37,003 nt of DNA from positions 1 through 37,003 of the forward strand of contig JAILHP010000032.1 in NCBI GenBank assembly GCA_024695705.1, in the 5' to 3' direction. This document shows, in pieces, positions 33,647-35,385 of this stretch (position 1 is its first letter; the number at the start of each line of letters is the position of its first letter). This stretch comes from Prevotella sp. Lineage in GTDB: Bacteria; Bacteroidota; Bacteroidia; Bacteroidales; Bacteroidaceae. A program made the translations under genes and the position numbers. The notes below the pieces were generated by a model. The model worked only from the letters and a program-made list of their open reading frames with translations, did not search any database and was not told the origin of the DNA.

Positions 33647-33824
33647 ATTTATATTAGTTACTATGTTTGCAGACGGAAACACCAAACTGCCAATAGGAGA
33701 TAGTCCTTAAGGCAGAGAAATATTCCGCACCGTGAGGTGCAGAGAACCTCTTCGCTACGCTTCGAGAACCTCTCCATCTCACGTTGCGTGAAAAGGGGCT
33801 TCGCGAAGAAAAGAGGCAAAAAAG

Positions 33825-33855
33825 TTGGTACGTTAATAATTGGATTGTATTTTTG
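33825..33855 (+). promoter_or_regulatory. Promoter of the IS110/IS1111-type transposase
   Basis: TTG (33825-33827), 20-nt spacer, TATTTTTG (33848-33855). Confidence 0.55.
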
Positions 33856-33902
33856 TAGGTGCTAACAAACAACATACAATAACCAACTAAAAGCGTACCA
33901 GT

Positions 33903-34976
33903 ATGCAAAGGAACAAAATTTCTTTCAAAGGACAAAAGATTTTCATCGGAATTGATGTCCATGACAAGACTTGGGATGTGGCAATAGCTCCCGAAGTAGG
34001 GATAGTGAAGAGGCACCCTCAAAAAGCCTCTGCGAAAGAGCTCTTTGACTTTCTGAAGAAACATTACCCGGATGGGGATTATCTGGCTGTCTATGAAACA
34101 GGTTTCAGCGGTTTCTCCACCTACTATGCTCTGAAGGAGGTTGGAATTGAGTGTATAGTAATTCACGCTGCCGATGTTCCGACAACACAGTATGAGGAGG
34201 TGATGAAGACGGACAAGATTGATTCTGTTAAGCTGGTGAGGTCACTGAAGGCTGGTTTGCTGAAAGGCATCTACATCAGAGAAAAGCAGAATATTGATGA
34301 CCGTTCTGTTGTACGCATCCGCAAGACTATACAGAGGCAGCTCTGTGGATATAAAGCTAGAGTCAAGCACATGTTGCATTGTCATGGGGTGGAATATCCG
34401 GAGCGTTTTGAAAAGAAGCAAACTCACTGGTCAAGGGCATTTATCACATGGTTGTTGAATGATGTGAAGTTGATGTCTGACACCCGTACCTCGCTTGATC
34501 TGCTCATAAGGCAGGTTGAAGTTATCAGAGGAACGATGCTTCAGGCAACGAATGAGTTGCGTCGACTATGTCATGAAGATAGGTATAAGCGCAAATACGA
34601 ACTAATAACCTCTGTGCCAGGAATTGGAACTATCGTGGGTATGACCATTCTTACCGAAGTCTATGACGTAAGGCGTTTTCATAACGAGAATGAGTTTGCC
34701 GCATACCTCGGTTTGATTCCCACAAGTCATAGCAGCGGTGCAAAGACTGTCCATGGCGAGAAGACTTTCAGGGGTAACAGACAAATCGGTCCGATGATCA
34801 TCGAAACGGCTTGGATAGCAATCTGCAGGGACCCTGGGCTTGGAGCACAGTACCTGAATTACAAGAAAAGGATGGAACCACAGGAGGCGATAGTGAGAAT
34901 AGCGCGCAAACTGTCGAACATCATCTTCTCGGTTCTAAAGAATGATAAAGAATATGTACCATATACGGGTAAATAA
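33903..34976 (+). CDS. IS110 family DEDD transposase
   Basis: N-terminal IGIDVHDKTWDVAI, YETGFSGF, KTDKIDSVKLVR; C-terminal Transposase_20 region SVPGIGTIVGMTILTEV...AAYLGLIPTSHSSGAKTVHGEKTFRGNRQIGPMIIETAW. Confidence 0.95.
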   Translation: MQRNKISFKGQKIFIGIDVHDKTWDVAIAPEVGIVKRHPQKASAKELFDFLKKHYPDGDYLAVYETGFSGFSTYYALKEVGIECIVIHAADVPTTQYEEVMKTDKIDSVKLVRSLKAGLLKGIYIREKQNIDDRSVVRIRKTIQRQLCGYKARVKHMLHCHGVEYPERFEKKQTHWSRAFITWLLNDVKLMSDTRTSLDLLIRQVEVIRGTMLQATNELRRLCHEDRYKRKYELITSVPGIGTIVGMTILTEVYDVRRFHNENEFAAYLGLIPTSHSSGAKTVHGEKTFRGNRQIGPMIIETAWIAICRDPGLGAQYLNYKKRMEPQEAIVRIARKLSNIIFSVLKNDKEYVPYTGK

Positions 34977-35002
34977 AATACGGACTAATAGACAACTTCA
35001 CA

Positions 35003-35207
35003 AAGACGACTCCTGCGTTGTACTGATGGGCTTATAAGCGTCATCTCAAATTAGATTGTTGCGTCTTACTATATATTCTGAAGAAGTAAATTGATGGGCG
35101 GCCACCTGTTGCCGTTTTATCTCATAGAAGTTTGTCTGGTAGGTCTGTTGTCGACAGTCTTTCAGTACCCAGCGTTAGACGTTGGGTTGAAAGCTACGAC
35201 TTCTTCA
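35003..35207 (+). ncRNA. Candidate bridge RNA/seekRNA of the IS110/IS1111-type element
   Basis: AAGACG (35003-35008) / CGTCTT (35062-35067); TGAAGAAGT (35079-35087) / ACTTCTTCA (35199-35207), enclosing CTTTCA-gta-CCCAGCG-TTAGA-CGTTGGG-t-TGAAAG (35159-35193). Confidence 0.5.
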
Positions 35208-35385
35208 AAAAGTCATCGTACTAATGGACTTCACGCTAAGTGATTGATACATAACAGTTAATAAACAATAAATATTTTCCAATTATTTGGAAAGCAACAT
35301 AGAAGTACAACGATCACTCCGTGACATTACTCATCGAGAAAATACAAAGATATAATTACCGATATTCAAATTTTTTTTATATAAA

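Follow-up and report, generated by a model that had tools for sequence, protein, structure and literature searches.

Locus and transposase

The window, a stretch of 37,003 nucleotides, is contig C134 of an incomplete 2.18-Mb genome whose relatives are Prevotella, and it carries a single, intact transposase gene of the IS110/IS116 family. Pfam comparison of the product returned Transposase_20 (E=4.5e-19) and DEDD_Tnp_IS110 (E=6.7e-8), and phmmer related its C-terminal domain to those of IS621 (8wt6, E=3.6e-5) and ISCro4 (9t56, E=7.8e-5). The IS1111-type motif GL-P----S(t)G is present as GLIPTSHSSG, together with D/E/D..D residues kept in relatives. A protein search yielded 27 relatives in Prevotella and its neighbours with 68-99% identity; the viral contigs searched held no relative of the element, and phages and plasmids held relatives below 60% identity only. 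Downstream of the gene, 329 nt of gene-free DNA extend to the right core, in line with the longer downstream non-coding region typical of IS1111 elements and with the roughly 300 nt without a gene that the initial annotation had described behind the transposase. An Rfam search gave no match. The features of the locus are as follows.

33648-33657, +: left target half TTTATATT plus core AG (matches the left target guide)
33656-35303, +: whole insertion sequence, with one core AG copy at the left (flanks of relatives diverge here; empty sites; no empty outer unit)
33661-33670, +: left subterminal inverted repeat CTATGTTTGC (many genome occurrences; covarying pair in L127)
33662-33669, +: putative -7 box TATGTTTG of a circle-junction promoter, within the left inverted repeat
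33671-33902, +: long structured 5' leader (folding z -3.5; several sequence types in relatives)
33824-33827 and 33848-33855, +: putative second promoter, for the transposase, GTTG - 20 nt - TATTTTTG (consensus only)
33835-33844, +: inner inverted repeat, left arm AATAATTGGA (sequence; the repeat of the initial annotation)
33903-34976, +: DEDD transposase/recombinase, 357 aa (Pfam; D, E, D..D and SG residues kept in relatives)
35003-35134, +: seekRNA/bridge RNA core, covariance model R1 (covariation, model search)
35003-35010, +: P1, 5' strand, closing the target loop by pairing with 35061-35067 (helix 1, 98.8% paired)
35016-35024, +: right target guide (RTG) CGTTGTA-CT, pairing with top strand AG-TACAACG (scan peak, held-out test)
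35025-35045, +: hairpin H1, between the target guides (helix 2)
35047-35054, +: left target guide (LTG), pairing with the bottom strand to the left (scan peak, held-out test)
35061-35067, +: P1, 3' strand (helix 1)
35085-35089, +: proposed right donor guide (RDG) AGTAA, complementary to left-end TTACT (conserved; L127 example)
35093-35121, +: hairpin H2, between the donor guides (helix 3)
35123-35130, +: proposed left donor guide (LDG) CATAGAAG, equal to right end CATAGA plus core AG (conservation)
35159-35193, +: hairpin H3 (covariation)
35278-35287, +: inner inverted repeat, right arm TCCAATTATT (sequence)
35294-35302, +: right subterminal inverted repeat GCAACATAG (shared by relatives with as little as 41% transposase identity)
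35304-35312, +: core AG plus right target half TACAACG (9/9 complementary to the RTG; junction rule from the empty sites of genome G216)

RNA structure

The region 3' of the transposase holds a conserved RNA fold, as revealed by an alignment of 24 relatives (A2), in which 97.7% of the cells of the 22 pairs in P1, H1 and H2 were paired and 14 of these pairs displayed double changes, both values being reached in 0 of 500 shuffles. The structure was chosen partly from the same alignment, which favours the paired percentage but does not explain the double changes. The covariation score amounted to 0.391, versus 0.182 for shuffled alignments and at most 0.12 when the structure was slid. Covariation among relatives, which the initial annotation had proposed to examine by a covariance model, is strong, and P1 varies from element to element as AAGACG/CGTCTT, AGAACG/CGTTCT, AAAACG/CGTTTT, AAGGCG/CGCCTT and ACAATG/CATTAT. 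The fold stability of the single sequence is weak (z = -1.7). Model R1 scored the region at 124.7 bits, its sole match in the window, and matched in 29 of 398 genomes of the genus.

Two of the three stems drawn previously are borne out by compensation: the 6-bp stem 35003-35008/35062-35067 corresponds to P1, four of whose seven pairs show compensatory changes, and the inner hairpin 35159-35193 covaries in five of seven counted pairs. The 9-bp closing stem 35079-35087/35199-35207 is present, its eight counted pairs being formed to 92.5% in 15 relatives, but it shows no double change, and L010, L050 and L020 lack its 3' strand or have another sequence there; we regard it as plausible, without covariation support. 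In two R1 matches (L159 and L160) the donor part is conserved and the target loop replaced; these are possibly decayed or re-used RNAs and were left out for their diverged target loop.

Ends of the element

The inverted repeat of the initial annotation, AATAATTGGA/TCCAATTATT, had been taken as the element's ends and proved to be internal; the true ends lie outside it, by 172 bp at the left and by 13 bp at the right. Outside this inner repeat relatives are still conserved, with TTTGGAWAGCAACATAG at the right and AAAAAGTTGG at the left, the latter preceded in relatives by a hairpin-rich stretch starting AG-TTACTATGTTTGC. In P. ihumii, three copies agree with each other as far as AG|TTACTATG on one side and CATAG|AAG on the other, and their surroundings are unrelated; a left part joined to a right part without transposase was absent from the 40 and 150 genomes searched. 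When the whole unit is removed from the 5'UTR of P. ihumii dps, the sequence aligns across the join with the dps 5'UTRs of other species. Finally, a relative of another genus, with 41% transposase identity, has a covarying end pair, CTATATTTGTAAT/ATTACAACATAG, the subterminal pair of L127 covarying over 12-13 bp. Taken together, these observations place the ends at CTATGTTTGC/GCAACATAG, subterminal inverted repeats with one gap, within the 7-17 bp known for IS1111 elements. Outside them lie AG-TTA at the left and A-AG at the right; the element measures about 1.65 kb, and the second core copy is 35304-35305.

Of 299 genomes, 60 contained the left-end sequence AGTTACTATGTTTGC, in about 115 places altogether (reversed control, 0), several copies standing beside IS110-type transposases of 46-100% identity; its frequent position at contig ends is expected of a collapsed repeat. 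In L072 and L098 this left end is followed, about 30 bases on, by a sequence starting GTGCGGCAG, which might be a group II intron; both contigs end soon after. L156 was left out, its apparent left end being too close to the RNA. A 'MITE-like' outer repeat carrying an independent IS was considered and rejected, as an empty outer unit was absent from the 150 genomes searched. As the earlier boundaries were wrong, the target proposed for testing was wrong too: its flanks (..AAAAAAGTTGG / AAAGCAAC..) are parts of the element, which relatives also carry although their insertion sites are unrelated. An inverted repeat inside such an element, even a perfect one, can pass for its end.

Target site and exact join

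Genome G216 has four copies of the element in the same repeat, with CCGTAG|TTACTATG at the left and CATAG|AAGGGGCGGGG at the right, and the uninterrupted sequence CCGTAGGGGCGGGG 25 times (reversed control, 0); no empty site with extra bases (0-6 allowed) was found. The target there is CCGT-AG-GGGCGGGG; either side has one copy of the core AG, and the element contributes TTACTATG...CATAGA. Because the repeat is available both filled and empty (CCGTAG|GGGCGGGG), the junction is fixed to the base, and insertion is precise and target-specific without duplication beyond the core, as is characteristic of IS1111 elements. Applied to the window, this rule gives the target TTATATT-AG-TACAACG (in full, TTATATTAGTACAACG) and the element 33656-35303 with one core copy.

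The G216 target repeat is palindromic (CCGTAGGGGCGGGGTTTATCCCC; L161, L167-L170, L172-L183), and its targeting resembles that of ISPa11, an IS1111 element targeting REP sequences. Five copies (L007, L012, L051, L144 and L150) have GG as right core, while the left core, where known, is AG; the difference may reflect which strand's core survives insertion.

Target guides

Within the otherwise conserved RNA two stretches are hypervariable, from GACTCCT to H1 and from H1 to TTGTTGCG. The former is the reverse complement of the core and the flank to its right where the element sits, and the latter equals the left flank plus core there. For the element of the window, RTG CGTTGTA-CT matches AG-TACAACG in 9 of 9 positions and LTG CAAATT-AG matches TATATT-AG in 6 of 8 including the core. 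Most relatives examined have different guides, each matching its own insertion site, for example at the right in L028 (AGAAATTAG), L010 (AGAATAAAA), L052 (AGATTTAAG) and L004 (AGTTTCG) and at the left in L009 (TAAATCAG), L012 (CCCTCAG) and L007 (AAATAAG). In L155 both guides have the core AA, as does the left core, and matches were weak or shifted in register in L006, L016 and L020.

Right guides agreed with their own flank at 6.39 of 10 positions, versus 4.24 for permuted flanks (23 elements; 0/20,000), and left guides at 4.71 of 8, versus 2.59 (24 elements; 0/20,000). When every RNA position was compared, on either strand, with the two flanks of about 40 elements, each flank gave a single dominant peak: the complement of the right flank at 35016 (z 11.1) and the left flank itself at 35047 (z 10.7). 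Unrelated values reached 5.6 at most. The result was reproduced at fixed register in a held-out set of elements first found by the covariance model, one per genome, in which the right guide scored 4.67 of 7 versus 2.48 (12 elements; 0/50,000) and the left guide 3.67 of 6 versus 1.69 (9 elements; 0/50,000). Complementarity between guide and target, anticipated by the initial annotation, is consequently present copy by copy and in held-out elements, but not to the sequences that it had named, AAAAAAGTTGG and AAAGCAAC, which belong to the element. A match of RNA TGTTGC to GCAACA of AAAAAAGTTGG/AAAGCAAC was dismissed; its bases are those of P1 and its flank, and it is lost in L050.

In several guides a start codon can be recognized (reverse complements ATTATGAAA, ACAATGAAC, GAAATGAAC and others), and start codon plus next codon (ATGAA) is found in the guides of L017-L021, L027, L014, L015, L006 and L007. 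With such guides the elements tend to be located immediately before genes, such as dps in P. ihumii.

Candidate donor guides

The RNA 3' of H2 reads CATAGA-AG, the same as the right end of the element plus core, and the RNA 5' of H2 has AGTAA(A)TT, able to pair with the left-end AG-TTACT if one base is bulged. ATAGAAG of the LDG is invariant in relatives and its first base varies; L127, with TCC at its left end and GGA in the RNA at the place of the RDG, provides one compensatory example. Left ends that differ from TTA also include ATC, in L128/L132. We infer the donor guides RDG and LDG from this conservation and this example, and the segments prove little in themselves, as they are nearly invariant like the element ends. 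The proposed region fits published IS1111 RNAs, in which potential donor-binding bases reportedly lie in a multi-loop (PMC11208160). Two other candidates were discarded: RNA TTACTAT (about 35066-35072) as left-end guide is lost in relatives with the same left end, and the 10-base donor match CATAGAAGTT fails at its two final positions in L127, leaving CATAGA-AG alone as the proposal.

Leader, inner repeat and putative promoters

The left end of about 245 nt departs from the short left end towards which IS1111 elements tend, a feature that is not an exclusive criterion. Joining of the ends would put TTTG (35286-35289) 20 nt before TATGTTTG, and this predicted junction promoter, TTTG - 20 nt - TATGTTTG, is a good match to the Bacteroides consensus TTTG / TAnnTTTG (PMC7366714). 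Close relatives (L005, L007, L014 and L017) have several unrelated-looking types of leader at 33671-33822, one of them with a hairpin followed by a T run, resembling a terminator.

The inner repeat is kept with compensatory changes (GGA/TCC, GGT/ACC), is replaced by another perfect repeat in L127 and is imperfect in L148. One of its arms lies in the spacer of the putative transposase promoter, and the other adjoins the predicted junction promoter's -33 box, positions which suggest a control function. At the right end, 35276-35291 form a 6-bp palindrome, TTCCAA-TTAT-TTGGAA, which in L050 is AACCAA-TTAT-TTGGTT. A G+C-rich hairpin, CTCTCGGGGGCTGCGAGCCCCCTGCCGCGAGGCACCCCCTCGGTGTTTTTCATA, recurs in Prevotella away from the transposase (L056, L058-L064, L073 and L077) and once just after the apparent end of another transposase, as a dispersed terminator-like unit.

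That the leader and the nested inner repeat make up a second control layer, one without description in the IS1111 literature compared, is a tentative idea which we think rather unlikely. Under it, the junction promoter would be followed by the folded leader, terminator-like in some relatives, and a bound protein, perhaps the transposase, could switch the expression of transposase and guide RNA between the integrated and the circular state.

Discussion

RNA-guided DNA inserters of this kind were discovered in 2024. The initial annotation assigned an IS1111-type guide RNA to the DNA 3' of the transposase, and the strong covariation and the complementarity of guide and target, per copy and in held-out elements, uphold this assignment; judged from sequence, we consider it highly probable that the guide RNA of an IS1111-type insertion sequence is encoded here. 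For transcription, processing, circle formation, donor pairing and catalysis the course is inferred, its later steps following the published IS1111 family. The RNA would be transcribed with or after the transposase gene, presumably processed, and would fold into two parts, a target loop (RTG-H1-LTG) closed by P1 and a donor region (RDG-H2-LDG). The former would pair with both strands of a target of ~15 bp centred on the core AG, and the latter with the excised circle at its junction, CATAGA-AG-TTACTATG (in the longer predicted form, GCAACATAGA-AG-TTACTATGTTTGC). Bound by the RNA, the DEDD/SG recombinase would exchange strands at the core and join element and target there, with no duplication beyond it.

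Three other explanations have to be weighed. If the element ended at the inner repeat AATAATTGGA/TCCAATTATT (about 33828-35290) and were inserted in a repeat AAAAAAGTTGG|AAAGCAACATAG, its circle junction would be ATTATTTGG-TACG and its empty site AAAAAGTTGG-AAAGCAACATAG. The perfect 10-bp repeat, with the 7-bp and 3-bp extensions expected of IS1111, speaks for such ends, as does an inner junction that would also give TTTG - 20 nt - TATTTTTG; yet identical copies in one genome share everything to AG|TTACTATG and CATAG|AAG, no joined empty repeat was present in 40 and 150 genomes, the empty sites of dps and G216 are without the leader as well, and the guides match the outer flanks, which makes these ends very improbable.

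It is just as improbable that the region is a mere UTR or terminator of the transposase mRNA, matching the flanks by chance or shared ancestry. Its position directly 3' of the transposase, with no separate promoter found, would suit this, but the match is abolished when flanks are permuted among related elements, the guides of close relatives differ and match different sites, and the two strands are matched by different segments, each at one position. Agreement of guide and flank copy by copy would also be seen if the guide were copied from the target after insertion and had no role in finding it; against this, the P. ihumii copies have one common guide at different, partly matching sites, and a single guide is common to three G216 copies and L161, which sit in a repeat that existed beforehand, so we give this explanation the least credence. 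The guide-RNA gene of an IS1111-type element is hence our preferred reading.

Guide RNAs of IS1111 elements have been shown by experiment for few elements (PMC11187229). With the seekRNAs of ISEc11, ISPa11 and ISKpn4 (Siddiquee et al. 2024, PMC11187229) the element shares a guide RNA downstream of a DEDD transposase, subterminal inverted repeats, natural re-targeting between close relatives, a top-strand match 5' of the bottom-strand match (RTG, then LTG) and a circle-junction promoter, shown for ISEc11 and here predicted from sequence. It differs from them in the Bacteroidota type of promoter, the long left end with its structured leader, the nested second inverted repeat and a new guide set; the published RNAs were seen protein-bound, whereas the Prevotella RNA is known from sequence alone. 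With the IS110/IS621 bridge RNA (Durrant et al. 2024, PMC11208160) it has in common target and donor guides each with a core dinucleotide, and a related C-terminal domain of the recombinase. The IS621 RNA lies upstream, in the left end, with the left guide first; in contrast, our RNA lies 3' of the gene, the right guide precedes the left, the core is AG instead of CT and the proposed donor guides are not in a simple internal loop. Neither the upstream position nor the left-first order of IS621-type IS110 elements was found.

The kind of element is thus already known; it is well supported by sequence that this member is new, that its target code has been read out and that the original coordinates and target are corrected. 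With many close Bacteroidota relatives carrying different guides, the target code is readable from sequence alone, nine RNA bases specifying the core and right side and about eight the left side and core. Exact filled and empty sites exist in sequenced genomes, one of which has 25 free targets, and the family offers natural RNA-guided recombinases of gut and rumen bacteria as a set open to testing.
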